Assembly (NCBI GenBank): GCA_022822785.1
Contig: JAJEAL010000117.1
Location: forward strand, 1 to 64,000
Origin: Candidatus Poribacteria bacterium
Lineage (GTDB): Bacteria > Poribacteria > WGA-4E > PCPOR2b
DNA length: 64,000 nt
Direction of reading: 5' to 3'
Shown: one piece after another, positions 973-54,300 of the stretch
Layout: the number at the start of each line of letters is the position of its first letter
Numbering within the stretch: position 1 is the stretch's first letter
Program-made: the position numbers and the translations under genes
The notes under the pieces: model-generated
The model's input: only the letters and a program-made list of their open reading frames with translations
The model's database searches: none
What the model was told of the DNA's origin: nothing

Positions 973-1131
973 GAAACGGATCACTTCCAAGGCGATTTGG
1001 CCCCCCGGGAATGGGATTCGCGTCTGCCGGTTTCACCGCAGGGGTTGGTTCCAAAGCGTTGGGGCGAAATTAAGTCTAACTCGTATAATCACCGAGGGAT
1101 TGGAGGCTATCCAATCCCTTCAATTCCTTAA
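973..1131 (+). pseudogene. Relic of the C-terminus of a TolB-like propeller protein
   Basis: In the frame beginning at 973, directly after an in-frame TAG, the translation contains REWDSRLPVSPQGLVPKRW followed by GEIKS. This matches the end of the intact propeller gene at 3123-4079 (QEWNPRLPISPQELTPTRW, then GKIKT). Only about 50 codons remain and there is no start codon or propeller body. The reading continues past the usual end to a TAA at 1129-1131. A 63-codon frame with a TTG start over the same bases is probably chance. This shows that a propeller paralogue once stood here. Confidence 0.6.
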
Positions 1132-1157
1132 CGCATAAGAAAGAACAGTTGGTAATT

Positions 1158-1199
1158 GCGGTATCATCCCTTTTTTCACGGGTATGATACCGCTTTTTT
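1158..1199 (+). terminator. Rho-independent terminator
   Basis: GCGGTATCAT (1158-1167) pairs perfectly with ATGATACCGC (1184-1193). The stem is extended by CCC/GGG next to the loop with a one-base bulge, and is followed by six T (1194-1199). It closes the unit of the gene at 249 and its downstream relic. Confidence 0.85.
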
Positions 1200-1261
1200 G
1201 TGCTTGGATCGACCGTCCCCTTAGGAATTACACCCTTCTGTTTGTAATAGGGCAATTTATT

Positions 1262-1402
1262 TTGTCCTATATAACACCGTTCTGATTGCTGCGCGGGCTT
1301 TTTCGTATCTTTCCGTTAAAAATTCATGCTGACTTTGAGATATTATTGTTTGTTTTGGTATGGAAATTGCTCGGGTCCTTTATAGGAGTTCACAAGTATC
1401 AA
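1262..1402 (+). repeat. Second copy of the upstream region found at about 45-165
   Basis: The two stretches share, in the same order, an ACC-GTT/ATT start, a TGCGC..GGCTTTTT block, a GTTAAAA/GAAAAC block, the GACTTTGAGA / GATTTTGAGA block with TATTGTTTG, the sigma-54-like box and a later ACAAGT. They differ by many substitutions, so this is an old duplication of a regulatory region. The first copy precedes the gene at 249; this one precedes a stretch of decayed coding sequence and the gene at 1729. Confidence 0.6.
1356..1370 (+). promoter_or_regulatory. Degenerate sigma-54-type box
   Basis: TGGTATG, four bases, TTGC: it keeps the essential GG and GC with correct spacing but deviates at two positions of the -24 element compared with 122-136. 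It lies in the duplicated upstream region and could drive the gene at 1729, though 359 bases away. Confidence 0.35.
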
Positions 1403-1595
1403 CCCTATCTACCAATGGTGCTAGTTTGCAACGGTTGATACGCTCTCTAGTCAGAAACCGAGCAGGTTGGTCTGCAACCTGTAGTCCAGATGGAGACTTT
1501 GGCTTTTACGGAAACTTATCCGGGTTTTATCAATTCGGCCTAAAACAGATGGAATCCAGAGAACTACGTTCAACAAGTTCCTCTCCTAAAAAACC

Positions 1596-1724
1596 TATTC
1601 TCATACCGAATATCTTAGTGATGTCGGAGATGCAATAGAAATCGTGGAGAGAAATTTCGCCTTGCAGCCTGACACTGTTTCAAGAATTACGGAGGGCTTA
1701 CTATTCCGAGATGAGGAGGAATAA
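1596..1724 (+). pseudogene. Short decayed coding tail
   Basis: One frame reads without stop from 1596 to a TAA at 1722-1724, with natural-looking sequence (EYLSDVGDAIEIVERNFALQ, then PDTVSRITEG). It is closed upstream by a TAA at about 1587 and has no start codon. It overlaps the ribosome site of the next gene. It probably is the end of a lost gene upstream of 1729; no homologue was recognised. The rest of 1400-1590 shows no convincing gene. Confidence 0.3.
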
Positions 1725-1728
1725 GACC

Positions 1729-2472
1729 ATGTTAATGCGTATGTCATTCACAATAACAATGTCTATTTTTTTCGCAGGATGGATCTGTTGCGTCATGTTT
1801 GGTCGTAATGACCAATCAGTGGCGTCGCCTGTGGAAACCGAAATCCAACTCTTACAAGTAGGTAGGTTTCACGGCGACGAGGTTTCAGCAGAATCAGGGG
1901 AAATCTGGCTGGGATTGTATCCGATGTCCGATGGGTACGCGTTAATCCCTTCAAGGATTACAGTGGGAACCGTTTATGACCCGTTTGTTGATAATGCCGG
2001 GGAGAAGACCGGAAAAGCGGTATCGGTAGAGGAACAGACGCGCCCGCTTTTTCTGATAAAGGGTTTAGATGTACCTAAAGGAAAATACATCAGGACACTA
2101 TCCGCCGAAGGGGCAATTTTGCCCCCCGGTAAGTACCTTGACCTTAGATTGGATGGCAAAAATGAATATCATTTAACAGTTTATGGCGAAGGGGAGGTAG
2201 GACCGAACGGATTTACTTCACTGCAAAACTACAGCCTTGAATTATCCAAGCGGCATCTATCACAGGAGCTGATCGCGTACAGTTCAACGAATGGTGCCAT
2301 ACCCGCCCTGCTCTGGGCAGGAGATCTGGATGGGGACGGTCAATTGGATCTGGTCATTAACGCGACCCCACATTACGCTGTATATTCTGCGCCGATGTTG
2401 TTCCTTTCATCAATGGCGAAGGATGGAAATTTAGTGCAGAAGGTTGCGGCATTTGTCGCTACCGGATGCTAG
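1729..2472 (+). CDS. Exported FG-GAP/VCBS-like protein
   Basis: 247 aa. The ATG at 1729 is chosen because AGGAGGA lies 8 bases before it; an in-frame ATG at 1711 has no such site. Residues 5-24 form a signal peptide. The middle (about 30-160) is predicted beta-rich. Near the C-terminus AGDLDGDGQLDLV is a classic calcium-binding FG-GAP/VCBS signature, followed by a hydrophobic strand and a terminal Cys. Such secreted proteins bind ligands or surfaces; the ligand here is unknown. The gene is followed by a 37-base relic of the propeller tail (2548-2584). Confidence 0.7.
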   Translation: MLMRMSFTITMSIFFAGWICCVMFGRNDQSVASPVETEIQLLQVGRFHGDEVSAESGEIWLGLYPMSDGYALIPSRITVGTVYDPFVDNAGEKTGKAVSVEEQTRPLFLIKGLDVPKGKYIRTLSAEGAILPPGKYLDLRLDGKNEYHLTVYGEGEVGPNGFTSLQNYSLELSKRHLSQELIAYSSTNGAIPALLWAGDLDGDGQLDLVINATPHYAVYSAPMLFLSSMAKDGNLVQKVAAFVATGC

Positions 2473-2547
2473 TACACTAGAACGTGTTGGTATTTCCGTG
2501 CTAATAGTGTATGACAGGTGAATCGAAGGACTTAGAATAGGAGTTCA

Positions 2548-2584
2548 CCACAACGCTTTGGGAAAAATAACAACAACCAAGTAG
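2548..2584 (+). pseudogene. 37-base relic of the propeller C-terminal tail
   Basis: This stretch aligns base by base with the last codons of the gene ending at 4079: an ACAACGC block, GGGAAAAATAA, then CAACAACCAAGTAG, giving GKITTTK and a stop. No open upstream part remains. It is the second of three such tails within 4.1 kb (also 1.0 kb and 4.05 kb). Confidence 0.5.
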
Positions 2585-2644
2585 AATTGATGTAGCGATT
2601 GGCTCTCAGCATTCAACAGCCCACGCCGGGCAAGGAGTAAGGAA

Positions 2645-2859
2645 ATGATAACGCATGAGTACCTCAACCTGCGGATAAATCAAGTAGACAGAATAGCAGC
2701 GAAACAATCCGGGCTCCCGTCTCTATTCTACACTATCAAGCGATGCTACGGAGATAACGAGGCATCCAACTATCTCCATACCTACAAGAACTCCATGGTT
2801 ACAAGAAAACGGGTGGTGGACGCTTTTTCAGCGCGGTAGGGGATACAACTTGTTTTTAA
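2645..2859 (+). pseudogene. Frameshifted copy of the small gene at 4675
   Basis: The first 49 codons are nearly identical to the gene at 4675-4878 (shared YLNLRINQVDRIAAKQSG). A 17-base imperfect tandem duplication (2774-2790 and 2791-2807, 14 of 17 bases equal) then shifts the frame, so translation ends early at 2839 after 64 residues. In the other frame the original end is still readable (KKTGGGRFFSAVGDTTCF, stop at 2857-2859) and lines up with the end of the intact copy. The ribosome site CAAGGAG is kept, so a 64-aa product may still be made. Confidence 0.65.
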
Positions 2860-2910
2860 GTGGATTTGCTTGTGCTATTGACGCCTCTATCGTCAAAGGA
2901 GACCATAACA

Positions 2911-3105
2911 ATGTCTGATTACTACGTTGGAATGAAATACGAAACCTTCTTAGCGCGCAACAGGAACAATATACTCCGCAGCGATCTACTGTTCGACTGT
3001 GAGGGCGGGAATGCGTCAGAATACCAATGGAATGACGGCAGGATAGTCTTCATCCTATGGCATTCACGGCTGAACCAACTCCGTATCATTTATATCGAAG
3101 AATAA
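2911..3105 (+). CDS. Small protein of unknown function
   Basis: 64 aa. The ATG at 2911 has AAAGGAG 8 bases upstream; a longer frame starting at 2860 lacks a site. The sequence (MSDYYVGMKYETFLARNRN onward) is soluble-looking, with no signal peptide, and ends in beta-like segments (RIVFILWHSRLNQLRIIYI). This resembles small beta proteins of the lipoprotein-assembly (SmpA/BamE) type only vaguely. It is followed 17 bases later by the propeller gene, so co-transcription is likely. Confidence 0.5.
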   Translation: MSDYYVGMKYETFLARNRNNILRSDLLFDCEGGNASEYQWNDGRIVFILWHSRLNQLRIIYIEE

Positions 3106-3122
3106 AAGGGAGCAAATTGCTG

Positions 3123-4079
3123 ATGAAACGGCATCGCATTATCCTCGTGGTTTGCTTTTGGCTGGTCACGAGCCCCCTTTGGGGCAAAATTGCTTTTTAT
3201 TCTACGCGGGATGGAAACAGCGAAATCTATACGATGGACTCTGACGGGGGCAACCAGACTCGATTCACGTTCAATGAAGCGAGTGATGTTAACCCCGTTT
3301 GGTCTCCCAACGGCCAACAGATTGCTTTCGGCAGCGATCGGGATGGAAATTGGGAGGTGTATGTGATGGACGCCGATGGGCAGAACCAACGGCGGTTAAC
3401 ACATCACCCCGGCATTGATGGTTATCCCGATTGGTCGCCTGATGGCTCTCAAATTGCGTTTGATAGCACCCGAAGTGCGCTTGAGATTTATGTAATGAAC
3501 GTCGATGGTGGCGATATCAAACAGGTGACAGACCTAGGGTTTGCCTCAAGACCGCGGTGGTCGCCGGATGGACAGTGGATACTGTTTATGGCGGGGCAAA
3601 TTTATGCCATCCGTCCCGATGGCACGGACCAGTGGCGGGTTTCTGAACCGAAGCCGGATGCAGGGATGTACTTGGGTGGGTGGTCGCCCGACGGGAAACA
3701 GATTGTGTATGTAGAAGCGATACACTCTAGTGTTAATGCTTCCACTCCAGTCATTGTCACCCTACCCCCTGCAGACCCGCAAGGGGGACTCAAGCGAGTA
3801 GCGGTTAAGATACCACGAAGAATAAAGGCTCTTCATTCTGTTTCTTTCTCTGCCGATGGGAAGGCAATACTCTTTAATGGTAAGAAACATTTTGTCAGGG
3901 AGGGTGTTAAGGGGGATTCGTGGAATATCTACCGCTTTGGACTGGTTGATAAGCAGCTGATACGGCTGACCCACAGTCAGGGAGCTGATGTTGTCCCACA
4001 GGAGTGGAATCCGCGCTTGCCTATCTCGCCACAGGAACTAACCCCAACGCGCTGGGGGAAAATAAAAACAACCAAGTAA
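3123..4079 (+). CDS. Exported TolB-like beta-propeller protein
   Basis: 318 aa. The ATG at 3123 follows AAAGGGAG; the upstream 22 codons in frame overlap the previous gene and are disregarded. Residues 1-20 are a signal peptide ending near LWG-K. At least five PD40/WD40-like repeats follow (pattern NPVWSPNGQQIAFGSDRDGN, YPDWSPDGSQIAF, RPRWSPDGQWILF, GGWSPDGKQIVY, SFSADGKAILF), the TolB-type propeller. It is likely periplasmic and binding a protein or glycan. The end, LPISPQELTPTRWGKIK, is a tail that recurs at 1.0, 2.55 and 40.6 kb in unrelated or broken genes. A terminator follows directly. Confidence 0.85.
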   Translation: MKRHRIILVVCFWLVTSPLWGKIAFYSTRDGNSEIYTMDSDGGNQTRFTFNEASDVNPVWSPNGQQIAFGSDRDGNWEVYVMDADGQNQRRLTHHPGIDGYPDWSPDGSQIAFDSTRSALEIYVMNVDGGDIKQVTDLGFASRPRWSPDGQWILFMAGQIYAIRPDGTDQWRVSEPKPDAGMYLGGWSPDGKQIVYVEAIHSSVNASTPVIVTLPPADPQGGLKRVAVKIPRRIKALHSVSFSADGKAILFNGKKHFVREGVKGDSWNIYRFGLVDKQLIRLTHSQGADVVPQEWNPRLPISPQELTPTRWGKIKTTK

Positions 4080-4086
4080 AAATAAG

Positions 4087-4119
4087 AGAGGGGGCGATTA
4101 TGCCTCCTTTTTTATTTTA
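4087..4119 (+). terminator. Rho-independent terminator
   Basis: AGAGGGGGC (4087-4095) pairs with GCCTCCTTT (4102-4110), with two G-T pairs and a six-base loop, running into T-rich sequence up to 4119. It ends the propeller gene. Confidence 0.75.
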
Positions 4120-4135
4120 GGAAGGAGCACATATC

Positions 4136-4285
4136 ATGGTTTTCAGAAGTGCAATTATCACCGCATTTGCCTTTTTAAGCGCCGGGTTGTATCTCTATTT
4201 AATGCTGCTCATTTTTCTAATGATGGAAAGTCTATTCGCTTTGGTGGAAAACAGAATAGTGCTATCAGTTCTGACGGGTCGATAA
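4136..4285 (+). CDS. Possible 49-aa membrane peptide
   Basis: ATG at 4136 with GAAGGAG 9 bases upstream, and an open frame of 49 codons with a long hydrophobic stretch (residues 6-36). The second half overlaps a relic of propeller coding sequence in another frame (4198-4353), so the lower part of this frame may be accidental; the ribosome site and first 20 codons look like a genuine signal-peptide start whose original reading frame was lost. Expression is uncertain. Confidence 0.3.
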   Translation: MVFRSAIITAFAFLSAGLYLYLMLLIFLMMESLFALVENRIVLSVLTGR

Positions 4286-4353
4286 GCGACTCATACTATT
4301 ATTCATTTAGATACCTTGGCACATTAAGATGCCACAAAGGGGTGCTCCCATGA
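4198..4353 (+). pseudogene. Relic of a propeller blade
   Basis: In the frame of 4198 the translation FNAAHFSNDGKSIRFGG is a PD40 blade (compare FSADGKAILFNG in the gene at 3123), followed by about 35 further codons to a TGA at 4351-4353. There is no start in this frame. Together with the signal-peptide-like start at 4136 it suggests a deleted propeller paralogue with a frameshift between the two pieces. Confidence 0.5.
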
Positions 4354-4622
4354 AATTAAGAATTGCAATTGTCGCTGTTATGGTCCTTTTAGTCGCAGGA
4401 TTGTACTTCTATCTCAACCCTGTAGAGAAAGGGCAACCGCTGTTTCGCAAGAGTGAGCCTAATACCGTTGAGGAATCTGTGGTGCCTGATAATTCCGATA
4501 ATTTGGATCGCAATGATATTCCCAGGCAACAAGAACCCAAAAGTCCTGAAAGGGTTCAGCCCAAACATTTCCACACGATCGTGGTACTCCTCGGAAAGCA
4601 TCTGTCAACCGCCGATAGCTAG
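4350..4622 (+). CDS. Small signal-anchored protein, unknown
   Basis: 90 aa. The ATG at 4350 has AAAGGGG 8 bases upstream; an in-frame ATG at 4329 has none. Residues 2-21 form a hydrophobic anchor (IAIVAVMVLLVAGLYFYL). The rest is polar, rich in Pro, Glu and Asn, probably disordered, and the last 15 residues look out of character and may follow a frameshift. Layout is similar to the gene at 249. No function can be given. Confidence 0.5.
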   Translation: MKLRIAIVAVMVLLVAGLYFYLNPVEKGQPLFRKSEPNTVEESVVPDNSDNLDRNDIPRQQEPKSPERVQPKHFHTIVVLLGKHLSTADS

Positions 4623-4638
4623 TGGAGCAATTGACAAT

Positions 4639-4925
4639 CAAATTTCAACAGCCCTCCGGGCAAGGAGTAAGAAAATGACAACGCGTGAGTATCTCAACCT
4701 GCGGATAAATCAAGTAGACAGGATAGCAGCGAAACAATCCGGGCTCCCGTCTCTATTCTACACTATCAAGCGATGCTACGGAGATAACGAGGCATCAAGC
4801 TATCTCCATACCTACAAAGGAACGAAGGGTCGCCCAAGCGTTGTTTTCATCGCGGGAGGCAATGCAACTCGTTTTTAGGGAGATTTGTCTGTGTTATTGG
4901 CACTTCTAACGATTAACCTTTAACT
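4639..4925 (+). repeat. Duplicated gene segment (other copy 2605-2897)
   Basis: Both copies begin with TTCAACAGCCC and CGGGCAAGGAGTAAG before the start codon, keep nearly identical first halves of the gene, and then share a weaker match through the stop codon into the 3' flank (CAACT-GTTTTTA, GATTTG, GTG-TATTG). The graded similarity suggests gene conversion or selection on the front part only. Confidence 0.65.
4675..4878 (+). CDS. Small protein of unknown function, intact copy
   Basis: 67 aa. ATG at 4675 with CAAGGAG 8 bases upstream. No signal peptide; the first 50 residues look helical and basic (YLNLRINQVDRIAAKQSG, YTIKRCYGDNEAS), the end is glycine-rich (VVFIAGGNATRF). It is 95 percent or more identical to the first 49 codons of the frameshifted copy at 2645, and the similarity continues about 45 bases past the stop. 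So a whole gene with flanks was duplicated, recently in the front half. It was not recognised as a known family. Confidence 0.55.
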   Translation: MTTREYLNLRINQVDRIAAKQSGLPSLFYTIKRCYGDNEASSYLHTYKGTKGRPSVVFIAGGNATRF

Positions 4926-5441: not shown

Positions 5442-8400
5442 ATGTATGCACGGCACAAACAACCCATAGTCTTTATCCTATTTCTCTGCTGTTTTGTATC
5501 TGTTCTCTTACCGATTGCCCACGCTCAAGACGAAACGGTTGATGAAAAAATCGTCATGCGCTATAAGCAGATGCTGGAGCGCAAACCGAAAGAGGGTAGT
5601 ACGTTTGACCGCTTGTATCAGCTTTATCTTGAAGGGCAGGGCTTGGACCAGATGGTTGTTGACTATCAAACGGAGGCGGGGGCAAAACCGGAGGATCCGA
5701 ACCTACAATTGATTCTGGGGCATATCTACAAGCGATTGGGCAAAAATACGGAAGCAATCGCGGCGTATAAGCGTGCTGTTGATTTAGCACCGGACAATTA
5801 CTATCCGCACTTTGCGCTTGGACAGATGTATGCGACGTTGCGTCAGCATGAGGAAGCAACAGCTGCGCTCACAAAGGCGGCGGATCTTGCGATAGCGTCA
5901 CAGGCTGCCACGCCTGATGAATTGACAGCTACCTATAAAGCGCTTGGACGCGCCTATTTCCGTCGCGATCGGATAGATGAGGCGATTGCGGCGTGGGTCA
6001 AAATGGCTGAATTGGATCCGGAGAACCTCTTCTCCCGTATTGAGTTGGCGGATCTGTTTCGTGAGGGTGAACTTTACACCCAAGCCATCGAACAGCACGA
6101 GGCGATTGTCGAATTGAAGCGGGATGACCCGTATCGAGTCTGTTTGAGTCTGCGGGAGATTGGGAAGATTCAGGAGGAGATGAGGGGATACGATGCTGCC
6201 GTCCAAAGCTATGACAAAGCCCTTGCGTTGACAGGGCCTGGAAACTGGTTACGAAAAGACTTGCATCAACGCATCATCGGTATCTACGCCCACAACGGGG
6301 ATTGGCCCGGCTTAATCACCTATTATGAGGGCAAACTCGCCCAAACACCGAATGATGTGGAATTGATTGGCTTGCTTGCCAGTGCCTATATCGAGAATGA
6401 GGAGATGGATGAAGGCATCGCCAAGTACAGGCAGGGATTGGAACTTGCTCCGACGGACGCTGGACTCCGCCTGAACCTTATCGCTGTTTTCCGTAACACC
6501 GAGAGATTTGAAGAAGCGGCAGCAGAATATGAAATCTTCAGCGAGGCGCAGCCGGACGATTTTGGGATCTACCGTGAACTCGGCGAATTGTACCTGCAAC
6601 TGGAGGACGAAGATAGAGCAAAGGCAACCTATCAGCGGATGATTGACCGTGATTCAGATAATGCAGGAACCCACCTCATCCTCGCTGAAATTTACACAGG
6701 GCATGGATGGACAGATGATGCTGTTGCAGCATACGAAAAAGCAATTTCGCTCGCGCCTGACAATCTCGATTACATCGAGTATTTCGGTGAATTCTACTTT
6801 CGTCAAGGAAATCGTGAGAAGGCTGTCGAGACGTGGAATCGGATGGTCGCCCCCCTATTTCCCCCCGCAAGCGGGGAGATAAAGGGGGGTAGTGCCGAGA
6901 ATTATGACCGCCTCGCACAGTTGCTGGACACCAAGTATTTCCGGGGGGAAGCCATCGCCGCAAGTCGAAAGGCGGTTGAGTTGGGGCCCGGTGAGTATCG
7001 CTACCGTGAGGCGTTGGCGCAGCGGTTGATGGAAAACAAGGATTATGAGGAAGCGTTGGCTGAGTACACGGAAGCTGCGAAGTTAGCACCGAACCCCTTC
7101 TTCGCAGAGCGGATGACCGATCAGCAGATTGAAATCTATCGGCGTCAGGGTATCTTGGCGGAGAAAATTGACGAGTTGGAAGGGTTGCCTGAAAGTTTTG
7201 AACAACAGAAACAGCTTGCCAAAATGTATCTCAAGCTGGGGAACGTGACAAATGCACTTGCAATTCTGATTCAGGCAAGAGGACTCAAACCAGATGATGT
7301 ACAAGTCAATCGCTGGCTGGTGGAGCTGTATACCAGAAGTGGACGGCGTGACGAAGCGGTCGCTATTTACAATCATCTCGTTCAGGTTGATGCCGGGAAT
7401 GCACGGGAATACTATTCAGATAACGCACGTCTCCATCTGCGTGCGATGGACTTCGACGCCGCCATCACAGCCGCAAAACAGGCGATTGCACATAGCCCCC
7501 GGAATCCGGAGGGGCACCAACTACTTGCCACAATCGAGAAGCAGCGTGGACATTACGACGCGGCGGCCGATAGCCTCAAACAGGCAATCCGTTTGCGCTC
7601 CGACTCCACCGACATTCGTGCCGAACTTGCAGATGTGTATCAGCAAGCGGGCGATTATCGGCAGGCAATTGAGCAGTATTGGCGATGCTGGGATCTGAGC
7701 GACGAACTCAGTGATAAGCTCTCGTTCGTCAATCGGTTAGAGGGCGCATATTATGATCTTGGACGAAGCGATGAGTTGGAAGATACGCTCCGGCAGATAG
7801 CAAGGGTAAACCCAAATGACCGAGGTCCCGTGTTAGGATTAGCAGAATTGTACCGGAGGCAAGGAGACCTACCCGCTGCGAGAGAACAATTGGCACGAGC
7901 ATTGGAGCAAGAGACGCAGAATCCCGCCCTACTGACGCAGTTAGTTAAAATTAACCTCGAACTTGGTGAAACGCAGCAGGCGCTTTCGTATCAGCAGCGG
8001 CTTGTCAAGGCACAGCCTAATCCTTATCACCAACAGAAACTTGGCGAAATGCTCTTTGACATTGGTCGAGAGCAGGAGGCAGTTCAGACGTGGTCAAAGC
8101 TGCTGCACGTTAGAAATAAAGATGTCGAAGCGGAGATAAAACTGGCAGAATTACTCAGTCAACATGGGTTGCTTGATGAAGCGCTTTCTGCGTTAGATCG
8201 TGCCGGAGAGAAAGTAACGGAGGCGAAAAAACTGTATCATATAGGTGCGTTGCTGGTCGAGATGAACGAATTGGAGCGCGCTACATCACATTTCGATCGA
8301 ATACTGGCGATGCCCGAACCGTCTTCAGAAGCTAAGAAAAATGTGGGACAGGCTGGCCGCCCAACTGTTGGATCATCTCAGAAATCGTTCCTACCCGATA

Positions 8401-11400
8401 CACGCCGGTTCAACTTAGTGAGAGATCTCGTCCATCGAATTCAGCGACCATATTGGGGCTCAACTGGCGCGAGGTGGCTGCCGAGCAGTTTTGAGGAAGC
8501 TCAAGTTGGAGCGTTGACCCAACTCGGACTCATCGCCCAGCGCGAGCAACGGCTTGATGATTTTATTGCAGGTTTTGAGGCGAAGGCGGAGGCACACCCC
8601 CAGGATCTCCGGGGCTTGGAAACTTTAGCGCAGGTCAGCATTCTGATGGAGAACCCCGATAAAACGCTGCAAACTGTCGAGCGCCTGATTGCGTTGTCAC
8701 CGAGCGATTTGTCCTATAGAGCGATCCAGCTTGATCAGGCATTACAGCGCGACTTGGATTACGAAGGGGCAAAGAGCTATCTCGATGGACTCAGCCAACT
8801 CTCTCTTGAAGCGCGGTTATGGTATACCAGCCAATTGGCAAACACCCTCTATCGGGGTGGCAATCAGGCTGATGCGGAGAAGTTGGTGCATGAAATCGAA
8901 GATACGGGTGTAACAGATGTGCAGGTTCTATCGGAGGTTGTCAGGACATTGACACAGATCGGAGAGACAGACGCGGCAGAGCGAATCTTAGCGCAGCTGC
9001 CTGCTACTTCAAACGTTACCCGAGGGGCAAGCCGAGCGGGTCAGGGGGCACGGTCTCGCCGGACCATGTATTCAAACCTTTCCTACGCCTACGTGCGCGA
9101 TGGACAGATTGACAAGGCAGTCACCGTCTTCCGGAAATTTTTCGAACACACCAAAGCTGCCGTTGCCAACTCCCGTATGATCTCAATTGCATACAGTTCG
9201 CACAGCTACGGTGGGTATAATCCGGTGCAAACCAATTTCCCAGCGTCCAGCATCTACTATAATCAAGATCGGCTGCAATTCTTGCAAGAGTTTTTTCTTT
9301 ATCTCTGGACGTGGAATCAACTGGAGCCGTTATATGCAAAGTTTCAGGCAGAATTTGAGGGGGCTAAAGGCGAAGATCGGATTTATCCCGGTTTGGCGTT
9401 GAGTTATTTTTATTGGTGGGAAGGAAAACGCGATAAGGCAGAGGAAATTTTAGCGGAATTGCAAGCGGAGTTTCCTGATAATCTAACGCTGACGCTCCAG
9501 GCCGCCTTTGTCTCCCTCCATACTGGAAACCATCAAGAAGCAATGGAGGCTTTCACTAAGGTTGCCGATAAGGATCGGCGGAATCGCCAACAGTATAACG
9601 ACCTTATTCTACAAGTTGCCATCTACACAGGCGATACAGTCAAGGTGCGCGAACTACTATCAAAGATCCTCAGTTCACCCGTTAGTGCGAGATCACTACA
9701 ACAATTTGCTGAAAAGCTGCAGCAGAGCGGGTTGATACAGTATGCGATTGTGGCATCGAAGGGCGCGATGAAGCTCGCCATGGGACAGCGTGATCCGAAC
9801 TTTTTGATTCAACTAAGTCAACAGTTAGAAGAGCTCGGCAGAGGACAGGATGCGGCAATCGTTGCAGAAAGAGCCTTGCGCTTTGCTAACCGGCGGGATC
9901 GGTACGGGCAGACGATGCACAATTGGTACTTCCAGCAGGCGTCAAATATGGCGCGCCGTCGAGCGACCAAGGAACGGGAGGATCTACTTACTCTGGCTGC
10001 CGAGAAAAACCCAAACTCTTTTCGCGCACAGATTAATCTCGCCACCTATTATGAAGCCATGAATCAAATCGATAAAGCTTCAAAAGCCTTTGACACTGCG
10101 TTAGGTTTGCGCCCAAAGGATGGGGTGACCCGCCAGCGGTATGCCCAGATGCTGATGCGGGGTGGCCGTGCTGATGCAGCGGTCGCGCAATATACTATAC
10201 TGCTCAGAGATGATCCCAACGCACTTGGTCACAATTTCTGGAACGTGATGCACACTTTTTTCCGAGCGGGAAAAGCAGCGGAGATTGCTTCTCTGGCGAA
10301 GGGAACGATCCGCCCTTCGATTGGGCGTGGCTTCGGTCCTCCTTTTGCAGAAAGTGTGGCGCAGGAATGTATTAGGTTCAATTATCCTGAAGGTGCGGTG
10401 GAGATTTATGAAAAGCTGCTGGCGGTCAATCCCAGTAATACTCGGACCTATGATCAGCTTGCATCCGCGTACACTGCAGCCGGTGATCGGGACAAGGCTA
10501 TCCAATTCCTGCGCACACAGTTGAAGGACAGTGAATCAGCAATCTTGAAAAATCGCAGAACGCAGATTCAGATGGTCCAGAAGTTAATTGAGTTATACAA
10601 GGTGTCGGGAGAGTTAGATGTGCTACGTGAAGAGTATGAGGGGCGGTTGGCAGAGAATCCCGATGACACGCTGCCGGTCTACTTGGTTGCGTTAATGCGG
10701 GTTGAAAGCGGGGCGATTGAAGGAGCTGAACCGCTTGTCAATCAACTGTTAGATGATCCATCAGTAATAAATCAGGAATGGTACAACAAACTCGCGGAAG
10801 CCTATCGCACCGCGGGCGACCAAGAACGCGAGGTACGCCTGCTTGAGCGGGCAGTTCAAAAACTCAGTCCGTGGAATACCTATCAGAAGTCCGATATGTA
10901 CGGAAAACTTGGCGCAGCGCAGGCACAACAAGGGGATAAGGAGAAGGCAGCGGACAGTTTTAGGAAAATGGGAAGTCTGCGCCTGCTGGTGTTTGGGGGT
11001 AGCAGCTATTGGGAAAAACAGGAAATCGCCAGTCGATTTATGCAGCACGAAATGTGGGATGATGCCGAGGCGATGTATACGGAAGTCCTCAATGATCTAT
11101 CGGTGGATCAGTACCATCGTGAACAGGCGCAGGAACGGTTGATGGAGATTAAGCGGCGAAAAAGTGGGCTTCAGACGACAACCCGTCTAGAAGAAAAAAC
11201 GGGGAAGATGAAGGTTGGCATACAGCGGGTATTGGCGAAGCAGTACATGCAGCGCGACCAACTCAGCAAAGCAGCAACGCTCTACAAGCAGATCATCGCG
11301 GTGATGCCCGAAGACCTTGAATCCCGTGCGGAACTCGCCCGGATTTATTCACGCCAAAATAAACACGAGGCGGCAATCACCGAATGGGACACGTTGCTAG

Positions 11401-14282
11401 AAGCGGATCCGGAAAACATGAAATATCAGGACGGACTGGTGAATGCCTATCAATCCGCTGACAGAACTGATGAGGCTATTGAGCTCGCACAAGGGTTCAT
11501 CGAAGCGGAGGAGAGTGGCGTTCACTATGCTCGCCTTGCCAAAGTTTATGCAGCCATTGATCGGATTGATGAGGCGATTGCCACTTATCAAAAGGCAATC
11601 GAGATTAATCCCGGCGATAAAAATGTCTATCAAGAGTTGGCACAACTCTACATACGGAAAGAGGATTTTGAGTCGGCAGAAAAGATGTTCCAGTACGCAA
11701 TCCAATACACCGGGGAAGAGTGGGAACGGCAGGACATTGAACGACAACTGATGGAGCTCTATCGTCGTCAAGGGAAGCTAGAAGGTATGCTTCAACAGGC
11801 AGAATCTGAAGGGCTGCTTTCTTTCGAGATGCAGCGGCAGCGGGCACAGGATTATGCCAGTCAAGGTGAATGGGAACAAGCTGCGAATGCCTATAAGAAG
11901 GCAATGGACATGACCACACAGAGCTGGGAGAGGAATGAGGTTTCTACAGAGTTGGTAAAAATCTATGCACAACTTGGACAGATCGATGCCGCTATTGATC
12001 TCTATAAAACCCTGTCCCGGTCCGGTCTAGGCGGTATGTCTATGACTTGGTCGAGCCCAACAGGTTTCCAAATCTACTTTGCCGGTGACCAGGCGCGTGA
12101 ATCCCTGATTAATACCTATCGGAGTCAGGGCAAGTTGGATGACCTGCTCGCCTACTTTGAGGCGCAGGGCTTGGAAACAGCTGAAAATCCAACGAGGCTT
12201 GAAATCACCGCCGAAATCCATCGAACTCGCGGCGATTATGCAAACGCTGCGAAAAGTTATCAAACGCTTGCCAAAGTCCAACCCGGGAACGTTCGGAGTT
12301 ATTATTACGCTGCTGCGGCTCTTAATAAAAATGGTGAGCCGGAACTGACGCAAACGATGTTGGATGAGGGAGAAGCTGCCCTATCTGCCGACATGCAGTG
12401 GAATCAGGATATGTGGCGTTTGACAGCACTTGGGAGTATCTGCGTTGAGGGAGAGCTATACAATCCGGCAATTAAGCTCATTGAAGACGCTATCATGTAT
12501 GCTGGACGTTACGGCGGCGGTGGTCACGAACGTCCACAACTGTATAATATGCTCGCTCAAAGCTATCTCGGCATGGAACGCTATGAGGAGGCGATGAATG
12601 CCTATCAAGATCTGGAAAATGCTGCTCAGGACGATGGAATGCGACAGGTCGCGCGAGATGGGATGCGTCGGGCATACAGAGCCGGGAATCTGCATGAGAA
12701 GATGGCTGCCGAGCGGGTGCAGGCGGTTGAGAACAATCCCGAGGACCCGGATGCCCACTTCGCCTTAGCGCAAACCTACGAATGGAGCGGTATGCACGAC
12801 AAGGCAATCGCCGCTTACAAGCGTGCCGACGAGTTGAATCCTGACAGCACCATTATCTTAGACCGGTTAGCAAAACTGTATACCGATGCAGATCCTGAAC
12901 AGGCGAAAATTCTCTACAAACGCCTCATTGCACTGGTAGATGAGCCTAGCGACCGCCTCCAAAAGCGGTGGCTGTTGATTGAAGTATACAAGAGGCTAGA
13001 CGAACTCGACACTGCCATCGCAGAGCTGCGTGACTTTGTCGAAGCAGCTGCGGAAGAGTTTGAACGTGAGGCAGCACTCCGCTTGCTCTGGAACATCTAC
13101 AAGGATGAAGAACGGAAAGGCGAAAGGGTTGCTATTTTTGAAGAGCTTGCATCGCAAATTGGAGAAAATGCAACCGTGTATGAACTGCTCGGAGATGCCT
13201 ACGAAGCGGTAGGGAATCAAGAAAAAGCGAGCATAGCTTACACACAATGGGTTGAATTCCGTCAAACAGAGATAAATCGGGGGGGACGCAATTGGGACTA
13301 TTACCACCTTGCGGGCCAACTGCTCCGAAAGGGGATCATGCCCGACAAAGCGCTTGAATTCGCCAAACGTGTGACGCAGGCACACCCTGACCCGCACTAT
13401 GACGCGATGTTGGGAGAGGCGTACCTCCTCAATGAACAGTATGAGGAATCTGAGAAGAGTTTCAAACGGGCACTTGCCAACCCTGATTTACCTTTCGATA
13501 CAGAGGCGATATGGCCCCATCTGAAGCGAGCGGGTAAAAATGTGAAGGACGAGGAACGTTTTATACAGTTGATGGAGGTATTAACAGGAACCATCCTCCT
13601 TAATACAACCGAACGGATGCACGCAAATTTGGTGTTGTCGACGTTCTACCACGAGCACAATCAACCCGAAGAAGCGGAACGATATATGCGGAAATCGGGC
13701 ATTGTGCCTGAAAGCGCGTGGTGGGTTCTTGGGCCGTTTGACAATGCAGGGGATGTCGGCTATAATAAAGCTTACATACCGGAGGCCGCCGTGGAGATTG
13801 ATAAAACCGCGGCATACGAAGGCACAGATGGACAAATCGGTTGGGAACAGAGGACGGATGAGACCTTTGATGGCTTAGTTGATTTCGCACCAATCTTCGG
13901 TTTCGAGGGCTTAAATCCAGCGCTAGGCGACATGGAACAACCAAATCCTCAGCTTGACACTGTACTTGCCTACACCTGGACGACAGTCGCCGCTCCCGAT
14001 GAACGAGGAGCACGGATCTGGATCTCTACCCACAACCCCGCGAAAATTTGGTTCAACGGGAAAGAAGTTTCCACAATCAACCAAGCCCAGCAACCTATGC
14101 CTGATAATCAACACATGGTCCCCGTGACGCTCCAAGCCGGGGAAAATAGCATCCTCGTCAAACTCAGTGGACGGCAGTGGGGATGGAAACTCCAGTTGTG
14201 GTTCACAGACGTAGATGGCTTCCCGTTTGAGGATTTGGAGTTTATAAATTCACCGACAATCCAACAGGCAGTGGAGAAATAA
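5442..14282 (+). CDS. Giant exported TPR protein (2946 aa)
   Basis: A strong site (AAAGGAG) precedes the ATG. Residues 1-29 are a signal peptide (cleavage after AHA). From about 45 to 2700 the protein is an almost unbroken array of tetratricopeptide repeats (recurring A-x-x-xY-x-KA-x-x-LxP pattern), dozens in number. The last 190 residues (about 2755-2935) begin with WWVLGPFDN and form a predicted beta-sandwich of the type seen in planctomycete-like exported proteins. It most likely scaffolds other proteins in the periplasm. It heads a same-strand run with MoxR, DUF58 and vWA genes, where TPR proteins of the BatC/BatE type are usual, though far smaller. An in-frame palindromic insert lies at 6850-6889. 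Confidence 0.9.
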   Translation: MYARHKQPIVFILFLCCFVSVLLPIAHAQDETVDEKIVMRYKQMLERKPKEGSTFDRLYQLYLEGQGLDQMVVDYQTEAGAKPEDPNLQLILGHIYKRLGKNTEAIAAYKRAVDLAPDNYYPHFALGQMYATLRQHEEATAALTKAADLAIASQAATPDELTATYKALGRAYFRRDRIDEAIAAWVKMAELDPENLFSRIELADLFREGELYTQAIEQHEAIVELKRDDPYRVCLSLREIGKIQEEMRGYDAAVQSYDKALALTGPGNWLRKDLHQRIIGIYAHNGDWPGLITYYEGKLAQTPNDVELIGLLASAYIENEEMDEGIAKYRQGLELAPTDAGLRLNLIAVFRNTERFEEAAAEYEIFSEAQPDDFGIYRELGELYLQLEDEDRAKATYQRMIDRDSDNAGTHLILAEIYTGHGWTDDAVAAYEKAISLAPDNLDYIEYFGEFYFRQGNREKAVETWNRMVAPLFPPASGEIKGGSAENYDRLAQLLDTKYFRGEAIAASRKAVELGPGEYRYREALAQRLMENKDYEEALAEYTEAAKLAPNPFFAERMTDQQIEIYRRQGILAEKIDELEGLPESFEQQKQLAKMYLKLGNVTNALAILIQARGLKPDDVQVNRWLVELYTRSGRRDEAVAIYNHLVQVDAGNAREYYSDNARLHLRAMDFDAAITAAKQAIAHSPRNPEGHQLLATIEKQRGHYDAAADSLKQAIRLRSDSTDIRAELADVYQQAGDYRQAIEQYWRCWDLSDELSDKLSFVNRLEGAYYDLGRSDELEDTLRQIARVNPNDRGPVLGLAELYRRQGDLPAAREQLARALEQETQNPALLTQLVKINLELGETQQALSYQQRLVKAQPNPYHQQKLGEMLFDIGREQEAVQTWSKLLHVRNKDVEAEIKLAELLSQHGLLDEALSALDRAGEKVTEAKKLYHIGALLVEMNELERATSHFDRILAMPEPSSEAKKNVGQAGRPTVGSSQKSFLPDTRRFNLVRDLVHRIQRPYWGSTGARWLPSSFEEAQVGALTQLGLIAQREQRLDDFIAGFEAKAEAHPQDLRGLETLAQVSILMENPDKTLQTVERLIALSPSDLSYRAIQLDQALQRDLDYEGAKSYLDGLSQLSLEARLWYTSQLANTLYRGGNQADAEKLVHEIEDTGVTDVQVLSEVVRTLTQIGETDAAERILAQLPATSNVTRGASRAGQGARSRRTMYSNLSYAYVRDGQIDKAVTVFRKFFEHTKAAVANSRMISIAYSSHSYGGYNPVQTNFPASSIYYNQDRLQFLQEFFLYLWTWNQLEPLYAKFQAEFEGAKGEDRIYPGLALSYFYWWEGKRDKAEEILAELQAEFPDNLTLTLQAAFVSLHTGNHQEAMEAFTKVADKDRRNRQQYNDLILQVAIYTGDTVKVRELLSKILSSPVSARSLQQFAEKLQQSGLIQYAIVASKGAMKLAMGQRDPNFLIQLSQQLEELGRGQDAAIVAERALRFANRRDRYGQTMHNWYFQQASNMARRRATKEREDLLTLAAEKNPNSFRAQINLATYYEAMNQIDKASKAFDTALGLRPKDGVTRQRYAQMLMRGGRADAAVAQYTILLRDDPNALGHNFWNVMHTFFRAGKAAEIASLAKGTIRPSIGRGFGPPFAESVAQECIRFNYPEGAVEIYEKLLAVNPSNTRTYDQLASAYTAAGDRDKAIQFLRTQLKDSESAILKNRRTQIQMVQKLIELYKVSGELDVLREEYEGRLAENPDDTLPVYLVALMRVESGAIEGAEPLVNQLLDDPSVINQEWYNKLAEAYRTAGDQEREVRLLERAVQKLSPWNTYQKSDMYGKLGAAQAQQGDKEKAADSFRKMGSLRLLVFGGSSYWEKQEIASRFMQHEMWDDAEAMYTEVLNDLSVDQYHREQAQERLMEIKRRKSGLQTTTRLEEKTGKMKVGIQRVLAKQYMQRDQLSKAATLYKQIIAVMPEDLESRAELARIYSRQNKHEAAITEWDTLLEADPENMKYQDGLVNAYQSADRTDEAIELAQGFIEAEESGVHYARLAKVYAAIDRIDEAIATYQKAIEINPGDKNVYQELAQLYIRKEDFESAEKMFQYAIQYTGEEWERQDIERQLMELYRRQGKLEGMLQQAESEGLLSFEMQRQRAQDYASQGEWEQAANAYKKAMDMTTQSWERNEVSTELVKIYAQLGQIDAAIDLYKTLSRSGLGGMSMTWSSPTGFQIYFAGDQARESLINTYRSQGKLDDLLAYFEAQGLETAENPTRLEITAEIHRTRGDYANAAKSYQTLAKVQPGNVRSYYYAAAALNKNGEPELTQTMLDEGEAALSADMQWNQDMWRLTALGSICVEGELYNPAIKLIEDAIMYAGRYGGGGHERPQLYNMLAQSYLGMERYEEAMNAYQDLENAAQDDGMRQVARDGMRRAYRAGNLHEKMAAERVQAVENNPEDPDAHFALAQTYEWSGMHDKAIAAYKRADELNPDSTIILDRLAKLYTDADPEQAKILYKRLIALVDEPSDRLQKRWLLIEVYKRLDELDTAIAELRDFVEAAAEEFEREAALRLLWNIYKDEERKGERVAIFEELASQIGENATVYELLGDAYEAVGNQEKASIAYTQWVEFRQTEINRGGRNWDYYHLAGQLLRKGIMPDKALEFAKRVTQAHPDPHYDAMLGEAYLLNEQYEESEKSFKRALANPDLPFDTEAIWPHLKRAGKNVKDEERFIQLMEVLTGTILLNTTERMHANLVLSTFYHEHNQPEEAERYMRKSGIVPESAWWVLGPFDNAGDVGYNKAYIPEAAVEIDKTAAYEGTDGQIGWEQRTDETFDGLVDFAPIFGFEGLNPALGDMEQPNPQLDTVLAYTWTTVAAPDERGARIWISTHNPAKIWFNGKEVSTINQAQQPMPDNQHMVPVTLQAGENSILVKLSGRQWGWKLQLWFTDVDGFPFEDLEFINSPTIQQAVEK
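6850..6889. repeat. Palindromic element inserted in frame in the TPR gene
   Basis: Forty bases form an imperfect inverted repeat (16 of 20 positions pair): C6-TATTT-C6-GCA against AGCGGGGAGATAAAG6. Translated it gives PLFPPASGEIKGG, a proline/glycine-rich stretch that interrupts otherwise regular TPR sequence. Similar palindromes that yield PP..GEIKGG-like peptides are known as dispersed repeats that can insert into coding regions in other bacteria. Confidence 0.65.
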
Positions 14283-40570: not shown

Positions 40571-41305
40571 CTAACGGAAACTGCGTTTTATCTGCCCCCA
40601 AGTAGCTGTGAGTTTTCTCTGGGGCTGCACGGCAAGGTCATCCCATCGAGCTTCAAAGTTGTCGAAGTGAGCGATATTACCGCCCCCAGTCGATAGGTAA
40701 ATTCTACCCTCATCGTAGCTATTATCAAGGAAATCTAGCATTTTTTCGCCATCAACAAACATTTGAAACCGATTGCCCTTTGCAATGACCTTCAATCGAT
40801 ACCATGTATCCAATTGAACATTAAAAGGAGAAAATTTGAGAACTTTTGGTACGATAAGTACGCGTTGTCCTCTTCCCCGACGAGGTAGTAGGTCTCCTAC
40901 ATGCCAAATCACTGCTCCAAGCCCCTTGGTTTTATCTGCGTTTCTACCTATCAAGAAGTTATAAGTTAAGTCATATTGAAGTGTTGGGTGCTTATCGTTC
41001 TCAAATAAAGCATGCGCGCGCAGCCCAATGAGCGGACCATTGGCAACGGCCCCAGCCACTAACTTGCGGATTTTCACAGATACTGTTATCTCATAATCTC
41101 TTGCAACCACACCATCAACAGCAATGATAACCGTGGATTTGCGAGAACCGAGAACCAATTCACCGTTTTGAATACCTCCATCTTCGGCATCTTGTACAAA
41201 CGTCCAGCCTTTTAAATCACCATCGTTGAAATCATCACGAAATATCCCTGCCCATGTTGATGATGCGAATAACGTAAGTATCAGCATAACCATTATGTAC
41301 TTCAT
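40571..41305 (-). CDS. Exported laminin-G/DUF1080-like protein
   Basis: 244 aa; AGGTGA before the ATG. Residues 1-19 are a signal peptide (ASSTWA-G). The body is a jelly-roll of the concanavalin type: FRDDFNDGDLKGWTFVQDAE, GELVLGS, YEITVSVKI, NVQLDTWYRLKVIAKGNRF, MFVDGEKMLDF. Such domains bind or process sugars. The last residues LAVQPQRKLTATWGQIK repeat the tail seen on the unrelated propeller protein at 3123-4079, so this tail is a shared C-terminal module. Confidence 0.82.
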   Translation of the reverse strand: MKYIMVMLILTLFASSTWAGIFRDDFNDGDLKGWTFVQDAEDGGIQNGELVLGSRKSTVIIAVDGVVARDYEITVSVKIRKLVAGAVANGPLIGLRAHALFENDKHPTLQYDLTYNFLIGRNADKTKGLGAVIWHVGDLLPRRGRGQRVLIVPKVLKFSPFNVQLDTWYRLKVIAKGNRFQMFVDGEKMLDFLDNSYDEGRIYLSTGGGNIAHFDNFEARWDDLAVQPQRKLTATWGQIKRSFR

Positions 41306-41410
41306 GTCGCATCACCTGTGTTCAGATAGAGTCAGTTCTATTTGGAGTTTAGACTTCCAAAGCCTTTGAAATTTCGGAAGCCTAAACGGATATAATCATC
41401 GATCTGCTCC

Positions 41411-51364: not shown

Positions 51365-54300
51365 TTACTTTAGTATCAGCATCCGTCGCGTCGCTGTGAA
51401 TTCTCCTGTTGTCAGCGTGTAGAAATAGAGACCGCTGGCGAGGGGCTCACCGAGTTGATTGCGTCCGTCCCAATAGGCTGCCCGGCTTCGACTCCGATAC
51501 ATGCCCGCTGCTTGATGCCCTACCGCTAAATGTCGAACTAGCTGCCCGTTTATATCATAAATCGTCAGCGTGACCTCCCCCGGTTCTGCCAGTTGATACG
51601 GAATCCACGTCTCCGGATTAAACGGATTCGGGTAGTTTGCCAATAACGCAGTTTCTTCAGGAATTAGCAAAGCTAGCAAATTTTGGAGATTTTCGATACC
51701 TTGTTTGAAGGCGAGTGACCCATCATCTTCCAACCGTGCCTGTGCTATCCACGCTTCTATCGTCGCAGCATCTATGCTTTCTGTCCCCACCGATGGCGCA
51801 GCGGACGCTGTGGTGTTGCCGAGACTTCGTGCCGTGAGGATGAGGTCGAGGATACTGACGACGCCATCGCCGTTGAGATCCACCGGTGAGCCAGCGGGTA
51901 CTCTCCTCCCCAACTGCTGTGCGATGAGAATCAGGTCCAGAATGCTGACCACACCGTCTCGATTGACATCTCCTGTGGCAAGTTGTGCCTCCACAACGAT
52001 GGTAATTTGATGTGGTCCTGCGGGAATAGCTACCCCTGTGGTGGAGCCGAATTGGAAGTTCTGCAATGCCAACTCTGTTTCACCGGCGGATTTTGCCTTG
52101 AACCTCACCTGAAGCAGTGTGCCGGTGCCATCCACACCTTGGGTGGATAAGCGCGCCGCGTTGAGTCCTACAATTTTACCCACCGCGTTATCAATGGTCC
52201 CACCCTGAAAGAAGGTGGTTCCGCCATCGTTCTTTAGGAAATCGCCTTCACTTACGCTGATAGCTTCAAGTACAGTAGAGTCGAAGGCGATATCAAACTG
52301 CCATCCTGCCAAATCGGTGATATTTTCGGCGCGGATGTCGAGGGTAAAGGTATCGCCTGTATGAATTGGTATTTGGGAAAAAGTGTAGCCTATACCAGTT
52401 GACAACGTATACTCAGTTCCGGTTTCAAATCCAAAAAAGCCGTTAGCATGGGTGTAAACTGCAACTAACAAGACATTTCTCCCCTGCTGAAGTGTGACCG
52501 GTAAAAAGTCGGTGTAATCCTCACTTCTGCCCAGATGAAAGTTTTCGTAAACCAAAGCCCCGTTCAGCCAGACCTTTACACGCCCTGAGCTGCCAACGTA
52601 CATCGTTGTGTTCTGTTCGCGTGGTGAATAAAGGGAGACAGAACCGTAGACAGTGCCGTCATGGATAATACTTTTCAGCATATCCTCAATGTTATTCTCC
52701 CCCGTAGGCGGAAGTCTGTGGAAGGTCCAAACACTATCCCCAACAGAACCTTCCACTATTGCCCCGTGGGTAGCAATATCCATCTCTGTCACTGTGCCTC
52801 CACTCATTTCTGATAGTAAATCCGTGCTGCTATCTAGGTCTGTCTGCGGCAGCACGACCCAAAGCCACGGGCCCTCTATCTTCGGTCCTCCTTCCGGGAA
52901 CGCTGGATTGCTGTGCCAAAGGAGTGTTATATTTTCGCGTAACCTGTCCAAAGGTGAAAAGTCGGGAATCTTGTTGTCGTAGACCGCTAGCCATTTCAAG
53001 TTGTTCAAACCCGCAAGGGGGGATATATCCGATATGTTATTGTGGGAGAGGTGTATCCATGTCAAACTAGCTACTCGCGCAAGGGGGGATATATCCGATA
53101 TGTTATTAAACGAAAGATTCAAACGAGTTAACCCGGTTAACTCCGCGATAGGTGATATATCTGATATTTCGTTACGACGAAAATACAGTTCCTTCAGACC
53201 TGTTAAGCGTGCTAAAGGCGTAAGGTCCGATATCTCTGCGCCACAAATATCTACCCTTTCCATTTTTGTTAATCCCGCAAGGGGCGATAAATCGGAAATA
53301 GGGTTACCCCACGTGAGAATGTCTTTCAGATTGATTAGTCCTGCAAGCGGCGATAAGTCAGATACGTTGTTACGGTTAAAACCTAAAGACTCTAGGTTCA
53401 CTAACCCTGCAAGCGGTGACAGATCCGATACATTACAATCAGTAAAATGTAAATACTTCAGATGAGTCATTCCTGCAAGTGGTAACAGGGACAGATCTGA
53501 TACAGTGTCAAAGGAAAAGTCTAAAATCTCCAAATTGATTAGCCCTACTAGCGGTGAGAGATCAGAAATACCGGTAAAATTATGATCAAGCCTAAGTTCA
53601 CGCAAGTTTATTAACCCTGTCAGCGGTGAGAGATCAGAGATTTGATTATCCCTAAGATTCAACCGCATCAGATTGGTTGCGAACTGAATGCCCGTCAAAT
53701 CTTGGATGCCTCTGTCCCGTGCTTCAACTCTTGTCAACTGCTTCATCTCCTGCACAGTAATCGGGGTATTGGGGCTTTTGCCAAGTGCCTCTGCTATTGC
53801 AGTGTGCAGGTTGGGATCGGGGATCTGAACAATAGTCCCCGGTAACACTTCCGGCTGTGACGGACTGTCTACCTGGTCGTCAGGGAAGTCCAAAGCGTAA
53901 ATAATCGCTGGAAAATTAGACCTCCAGGCGTCCCGTTTCATGCTGCCACTGGGACTGTCCAATACCAATAATCCTGCATTCTGTAATCCTACATTCTCCC
54001 GTATCTTCTCTTGGAAGGTTTCCATCTCTAACCCAACGACTGCGGCAGCATAAGCAGCGCCCACAGGACCTTGGTACACCTCATGGAAACGGGAGATTGG
54101 CTCTATATCATCAACCGCACCGCCCGTCGCTTCCAACGCCTCTTTGTACGTATCCATATCCTCCTGTAAGAGTGCGTCCATCTTTGACTGCTCGACGTAG
54201 AGACGGAGTGCCTGCGCCTTGTCGTACGTTGGATTGGTATTTGCCTCAATCACCGAACGCACCTCGTCTTCAAAGGTCTTCATGCCTTCGGTGTGGCAAC

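Follow-up and report, generated by a model that had tools for sequence, protein, structure and literature searches.

The locus described here is one of many clusters of exported-propeller genes in a poribacterial genome, and the broken pieces within it are ordinary remnants of duplicated genes of that kind. The tails stand out because the propeller copies end in the same short tag, which recurs on unrelated exported proteins across the phylum. We give a probability of about 0.65 to the explanation as a whole, in which a duplicated and decayed propeller cluster is combined with a phylum-wide linear C-terminal signal that would be read by a predicted envelope receptor. The locus lies in a stretch of 64,000 nucleotides from a genome of the Poribacteria, a phylum known chiefly from sponges and not known in culture; this whole stretch is referred to below as the window.

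Intact and decayed propeller genes

All features of the locus given in this section are on the forward strand. The intact gene (3123-4079) encodes an exported PD40 propeller of 318 residues with an N-terminal hydrophobic helix (PD40 match, E 1.2e-34). Its C-terminal tag (residues 302-318, 4026-4076) matches the tag model with E 8e-10, a model in which this same tail is one of the rows.

A 3' remnant of a propeller gene (976-1142) comprises the last codons, which include a WGEIK tag, together with a hairpin-like palindrome at 1096-1118 and the stop. Its frame (973-1128) matches positions 284-320 of a 321-position profile of 20 relatives, from which the window protein was excluded, with E 8e-14. 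At the DNA level, 163 nt (980-1142) are 85% identical to the 3' end of a full-length paralog on another contig (C129), and the tag is found with E 2.1e-9 by a model built without this tail. A second propeller-gene tail (2539-2586), whose reading frame is broken on direct reading, is 80% identical to 4033-4081 over 49 nt; the match scores 41.0 bits, and the best of 300 block shuffles scores 24.7. The remaining piece is a blade remnant at about 4195-4257, adjoining the beginning of a small ORF (4137-4200) that looks like the gene of an exported protein. About 21 codons are recognizable; compared with a relative's frame, they are 67% identical to its residues 250-270 and score 32.7 bits, while 200 block shuffles of the piece reach at most 22.7. 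Its profile score of 8.9 corresponds to an E-value of only 0.039, and none of 200 shuffles of the region reaches that score (best 8.7).

An earlier note on this DNA had proposed three tails of one propeller family and a blade relic at 4198-4353. The remnants are real beyond chance, but a single propeller family is too narrow a description of the tails, as unrelated protein families across the phylum share them, and the recognizable blade similarity is confined to the shorter interval given above. Similarity reaches past the short tail, both for the first relic and for a duplicated ORF. The small genes and promoters were also described as duplicated, and copies of both are indeed present. The first of two 64-residue ORFs (2645-2839; 87.5% protein identity to L059:10118-10309, L059 being the equivalent locus in a sister species) has a second copy at 4675-4818, with 48 codons alike and 96% identity over 162 nt, and the regions 1-136 and 1234-1370 are 72% alike. 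The other ORFs of the neighborhood are a 225-residue frame with no family (249-926), a 253-residue frame with a weak FG-GAP repeat (1711-2472), the first 40 residues of which are alike in L059, the second 64-residue frame (2911-3105; 86% protein identity to L059:10384-10575) and a 90-residue frame (4350-4622; 53% identity to L059:9732-9992).

Within the two similar upstream regions, a promoter-like block (84-136) is 79% identical to its copy at 1318-1370. The block ends in TGGCAC-N5-TTGC, which we take to be a consensus of the sigma-54 -24/-12 type, and its GG and GC elements are invariant in four copies from two species. The sigma-54 pattern by itself is not significant (seven matches in the window with at most one mismatch, 4.85 expected), and this account therefore relies solely on the block that is repeated and conserved.

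Repeated duplication and decay, as first suggested for this locus, is well supported: one relative (G001) has four intact propeller genes in tandem (611814-615715), open-frame arrays of this kind being found in relatives, and the sister-species locus carries different remnants, namely a truncated copy and a 5' remnant beside an intact copy. Propeller copies would thus arise by duplication and then be truncated, leaving 3' and 5' stubs.

A C-terminal tag on unrelated exported proteins

The tag has the motif V-x-P-x-G-K-L-x-T-x-W-G-x-(L/I)-K, is about 15-20 residues long and usually ends 2-5 residues before the stop. Its position can be seen in 464 kb of the genome, which contain 368 ORFs of 120 residues or more. 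There, 13 occurrences of the pattern W..[ILV][KR] have fewer than 10 residues behind them, 11 of these being the full tag, whereas each other 10-residue bin out to 200 contains 0-4. The genome as a whole gives 82 matches to the tag model; leaving aside five with E over 1, 74 of the remaining 77 were read. W[GAES].[ILVMF]K is present in 69 of the 74, with V at -10 in 66, and two of the five matches without the motif are type IX tails (C66:480 and C126:1515). The K of the tag is at most five residues from the stop in 51/68 carriers of this genome and in 40/43 carriers from loci found by the phylum search. Invariance of W and K in carrier sets selected by pattern is by construction, because the search patterns require both. 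For propellers picked without regard to the tag, 37 of the 38 listed matches extend to position 315 or beyond of 318.

The tag is found in all 84 Poribacteria genomes searched, including the one studied here (E 1e-3 or better), 27 to at least 103 times in each. Outside the phylum, the search covered 147 distinct genomes from groups other than PVC and further possibly near phyla, and none has the tag: it is absent from all 12 named outgroups at E 0.1 and from 0/99 and 0/40 genomes of two other phyla a match is likewise lacking at E 1e-3. A reversed-tag control gives no match in 21 genomes at E 0.1, with 20 rows in the reversed model versus 47 in the forward one. Among named records, which were fetched by propeller similarity and are therefore rich in carriers, the tag is on 22 of 165 poribacterial ORFs (five of seven loci) versus none of 1695 ORFs from 73 other loci.

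The folds that bear the tag are unrelated: PD40 propellers, laminin-G-like, 3-keto-disaccharide-hydrolase-like, kelch, CBM9 and cohesin/PKD domains. When 63 carriers (from 100 carrier references, with near-copies thinned) were scanned, 19 had Laminin_G_3, 16 PD40, six 3keto-disac_hyd, four kelch and three CBM9_1; cohesin and PKD occur together in one carrier. An unrelated carrier is encoded in the window itself, on the reverse strand (40571-41311): it is 3-keto-disaccharide-hydrolase-like (PF06439, E 3.5e-12) and ends in TATWGQIKRSFR, a tag with E 1.5e-8 that is, however, also a row of the model. No model of the tag is among the families listed for the 63 carriers (25 of 43 for Pfam, 25 of 26 for NCBIfam) or in the full family lists of eight carriers (Pfam) and two carriers (NCBIfam). 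By a permissive home-made rule, 56/59 carriers of this genome and 37/43 from the phylum loci have a signal-peptide-like start; in a random sample the same rule gives 10/12 carriers versus 103/321 other proteins. The tag resembles a general C-terminal sorting tag in being next to the stop codon and common to unrelated exported domains.

Two AlphaFold models show the tag in its protein context. In the propeller (3123-4079), pLDDT is mostly over 90 at residues 21-300 and below 50 for the tag, which lies outside the fold; because confidence is low after the closed propeller, the tag is not part of it. The 40571-41311 protein is modeled as a beta-sandwich, and pLDDT is again below 50 in its tail (residues 227-240). 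Shallow alignments (26 and 17 sequences) may account for the low values. Among 17 carriers aligned with the sandwich protein, conservation is 0.65 for the tag versus 0.26 for the body, above all 60 body windows, a comparison that is biased since these carriers were picked by the tag. For 26 propellers picked by whole-length similarity, the values are 0.53 and 0.49, and 99 of 225 body windows are at least as conserved as the tag; W is present in 25 of these propellers, G in 25 and K in all 26. An origin of the tail from a propeller blade was rejected on the strength of the propeller model and the carriers of other folds.

A predicted sorting route and its alternatives

A short tail common to dozens of exported proteins per genome suggests a hitherto undescribed protein-sorting route, and from sequence the tag looks like a phylum-specific sorting or anchoring signal for Sec-exported proteins. 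An N-terminal signal peptide would direct export through Sec, and the domain would fold in the periplasm, leaving the tag free, as in the models. A dedicated envelope receptor would then bind the tag, probably through its nearly invariant W and K, and pass the protein to the cell surface or anchor it there. The first candidate machine would be a translocon of the SprA/Sov-PorV type. We see about an even chance that the Poribacteria have a sorting system of their own, in which a universal, phylum-restricted, non-membrane C-terminal address and a predicted envelope receptor deliver cargo to the surface.

If so, each genome would send lectin-like, propeller and polysaccharide-binding proteins to the surface, from dozens up to perhaps 200 different kinds. 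Poribacteria are prominent sponge symbionts (PMC3909097), and in such symbionts the delivered proteins would meet the sponge matrix and dissolved polysaccharides. With a phylum-wide tag, the likely surface proteome could be listed directly from sequences, and the tag could serve as bait for finding the sorting machine. The tag looks undescribed: in the mainly open-access literature on poribacterial sorting signals, secretion and C-terminal motifs, and as far as the available text goes, only PMC3909097 bears on it.

The strongest alternative, possible yet clearly below even odds, is that PorV and SprA/Sov of a poribacterial type IX system recognize the tag as a short signal, in addition to the usual long C-terminal domains (TIGR04183). 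Because this genome encodes SprA/Sov-like and PorV-family proteins, the route may be a variant of type IX secretion. The type IX components looked for were SprA/Sov, PorV and TIGR04183 tails. SprA_N is found once per genome in 13/13 genomes, including this one, in frames of 1946-2202 residues; seven are over the cut-off, and the match covers only about 100 of 510 positions. The SprA-like protein matches TIGR04189 with E 2.7e-46 over five stretches, at 157 bits, under the NCBIfam cut-off of 200, and has no match in a PDB sequence search at E up to 0.1. In the genome studied here, the PorV family scores 47.1 bits (cut-off 27), and 52 TIGR04183 tails are over their cut-off. Against this alternative, the tag has no folded domain and is unlike TIGR04183: among 63 tag carriers, the 72-position C-terminal domain model gives one match at E up to 0.1 (0.0034). 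By eye, the two kinds of tail also occupy different frames, apart from two weak tag matches without the motif. The candidate link between the tag and SprA/PorV is drawn from their co-presence in the same genome. A 2014 study reported such sorting domains on poribacterial proteins without the type IX machinery and did not settle how they are secreted (PMC3909097); with SprA-like and PorV-family proteins now in view, that puzzle is open again.

It is unlikely that the tag is instead an amphipathic membrane anchor, or a retention or degradation signal, rather than a sorting address. The spacing of L(-4), W(0) and L/I(+3) could form an amphipathic helix, and a low-confidence helix is modeled at 236-245 of the sandwich protein, but a hydrophobic stretch near the tag (15-residue hydropathy of at least 1.6 within the last 32 residues) is present in only 2/68 and 0/43 carriers.

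Passive spread, by which 3' gene ends with tag, stop and hairpin would move or convert between genes and the tag would be functionless, we regard as improbable. Twelve of the 74 tag-matching frames are under 130 residues, nine of them with the full motif, and the relic at 976-1142 retains tag, palindrome and stop together. This reading sits poorly with a tag that is in every genome of the phylum, keeps its W and K in the aligned propellers and is mostly on exported proteins, and 5' remnants also exist.

The suggestion in the earlier note that the locus may be a source of variants, taken here to mean that relics recombine to vary the exported protein, went unsupported in a light test and seems very improbable. 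Relics and intact gene are side by side, and one relic shares a 40-nt exact match with a paralog. That is the longest exact tract, in a check that covered this one relic (973-1142) against five loci, one of them (L002) from the same genome; the nearest full-length paralog of the intact protein in its own genome is only 60% identical, and the sister-species remnants are stubs of different parts. It is hardly credible that the tag serves to close the propeller structure and that the tails are simply relics of a single family. All 26 propellers picked by whole-length similarity do have it, but the modeled propeller closes ahead of the tag, which is also found at the end of proteins with beta-sandwich, kelch and other folds.

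Comparison with known systems

The sorting signal favored here can be set beside known systems. TolB/PD40 propellers have blades like those of the carrier at 3123-4079, but this protein scores 180.1 bits against TolB (TIGR02800), below the curated cut-off of 343.15, and the tag sits on other folds too. PEP-CTERM is a sorting tag of the same type, group-wide, C-terminal and on dozens of exported proteins; by hydropathy, the tag carriers lack the C-terminal transmembrane helix that characterizes PEP-CTERM and MYXO-CTERM. The latter, as described in PMC11980579, is universal in Myxococcota and consists of a signature motif whose cysteine is invariant, a transmembrane helix and an end rich in arginine. 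It resembles the poribacterial tag in being a group-wide C-terminal tag on dozens of exported proteins, but the poribacterial tag has neither the helix nor a conserved cysteine. The type IX C-terminal domain (TIGR04183, Por_Secre_tail) is likewise C-terminal on exported surface proteins, with dozens per genome and many unrelated cargoes; its model is a domain of 72 positions, whereas the poribacterial tag is about 15-20 residues long, lies outside the fold in two models and is on other frames.

Propeller genes and their remnants at the contig end

An intact gene for an exported PD40 propeller occupies positions 3123-4079 of the window, and three fragments of related genes surround it, so that all four fall inside 3.4 kb. 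The first fragment is the 3' stub of another propeller copy (976-1142, E 8e-14), which a full-length paralogue on contig C129 of the same genome matches at 85% DNA identity over 163 nt. The second is a frame-broken tail stub (2539-2586) that scores higher than all 300 shuffles, and the third is a blade stub of 21 codons (4195-4257) that scores higher than all 200 shuffles. Interspersed small genes of 64 aa (2645-2839, 2911-3105 and 4675-4818) are of two conserved kinds, one of them duplicated with copies starting at 2645 and 4675; a family assignment was sought for these ORFs in the window and none was found. They adjoin the propeller genes of two species. The window also has two copies of a block that resembles a promoter and contains elements of sigma-54 type. 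The assembly consists of 147 contigs, and the window begins with the very first base of contig C21, which limits the view upstream of the first promoter-like block.

Downstream of the array, at 5442-14282, lies a gene for a 2946-aa protein that was judged by eye to be tetratricopeptide-like (TPR). At E 1e-60 its N-terminal part is matched in 19 of 39 genomes, the own genome among them, and some have several copies.

The corresponding locus of the sister species, L059, still has the small ORFs and promoter blocks, and the TPR gene as well. Its propeller content is one intact gene, one truncated gene and one 5' remnant, and two more genes bearing the C-terminal motif described below stand immediately ahead of the TPR gene. 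Upstream of the propeller array in this locus (L059:981-5950) is a two-component pair, kinase then response regulator; the kinase bears two-component-regulator propeller repeats, and the response regulator is sigma-54-dependent. Another propeller paralogue, on contig C130 of the own genome, is likewise flanked by a sigma-54 activator. In a further relative (G001), four propeller genes follow one another with their frames open.

Duplication followed by truncation explains the history of the locus. The earlier note had proposed an array of propeller modules shaped by repeated duplication and decay, and this is borne out by the stubs in the window, the remnants in L059 and the row of four genes in G001; the duplication of small genes and promoters that it described is present as well. 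Its further suggestion, that the array might be a source of variants of exported proteins, gained no support from a light test for a variant-generating role.

A C-terminal tag confined to the phylum among the genomes searched

The intact propeller gene and the first stub both encode WGxIK close to the stop codon. This is the end of a longer tag, V-x-P-x-G-K-L-x-T-x-W-G-x-(L/I)-K, in which we count positions from the tryptophan. A profile built from 19 tails gave 82 matches in the own genome at E up to 10, of which 77 were taken up and 74 read. The pattern W[GAES].[ILVMF]K is present in 69 of the tails read, and these have V(-10) in 66 cases, P(-8) in 46, G(-6) in 47, K(-5) in 57 and T(-2) in 53. 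Among 95 distinct 15-mers from the own genome and loci of the phylum, K(-5) occurs in 86, T(-2) in 80 and P(-8) in 68; the pattern used to select them demands V/I, W and K, and so W and K are invariant in this set by construction. When propellers were instead chosen by whole-length similarity (n=26), W was found in 25 and K in all 26. In propellers chosen regardless of the tag, the body is about as conserved as the tag, which counts against reading the tag as a sorting signal.

The tag was found in all 84 genomes of the phylum, Poribacteria (own included), with 27 to at least 103 matches per genome at E 1e-3. There was no match in any of 147 distinct genomes outside the phylum, comprising 12 named genomes, 99 of the Winogradskyella phylum and 40 of the phylum of a BRC1/Sumerlaeota genome (four are shared between these sets, which extend neither to the PVC phyla nor to others that may be closely related). 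Independent named records give the same distribution, and a reversed tag profile, used as a control, had no matches in 21 genomes. Among the genomes searched, the tag is thus confined to the phylum.

Carriers, a possible export route and type IX secretion

Proteins that carry the tag span unrelated families; the position of the tag, its conservation and the diversity of its carriers are matters of observation. A simple rule for recognising signal peptides classes 56 of the 59 carriers in the own genome as apparently exported; in a random sample it selected 10 of 12 carriers vs 103 of 321 other proteins. Two structures were predicted, a propeller and a CBM66-like beta-sandwich, and in both the tag lies outside the fold, which models the tail as free of it. 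Contig C145 of the own genome holds a 61-aa frame (G000:C145:32676-32723) that reads as a signal peptide almost directly joined to the tag; it may be a naturally occurring minimal carrier, or else a relic.

We envisage a route in which carriers would leave the cytoplasm via Sec, a putative receptor would read the tag, and the tagged proteins would be delivered to the surface. For type IX secretion, a 2014 single-cell study reports that structural genes were not found (PMC3909097). The own genome encodes a SprA/Sov-like protein that matches TIGR04189 at E 2.7e-46, yet below the curated cut-off. The protein is about 2150 aa long (L255:2267-8722, on own contig C109; L256:3892-10404 in G001), and each of the 13 poribacterial genomes searched, the own one among them, has a single match. 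A PorV-family protein scores above the Pfam cut-off (L258:1414-2364; G000:C67:13674-14276), and a cluster of tag-bearing genes lies about 9 kb from its gene. Alongside these two proteins, the own genome has 52 type IX tails above the cut-off. Type IX machinery is one candidate for handling the new tag. Within a 1447-aa frame on the reverse strand, positions 51374-51634 match TIGR04183, the type IX C-terminal domain, at 40 bits; the window therefore contains C-terminal tails of both kinds.
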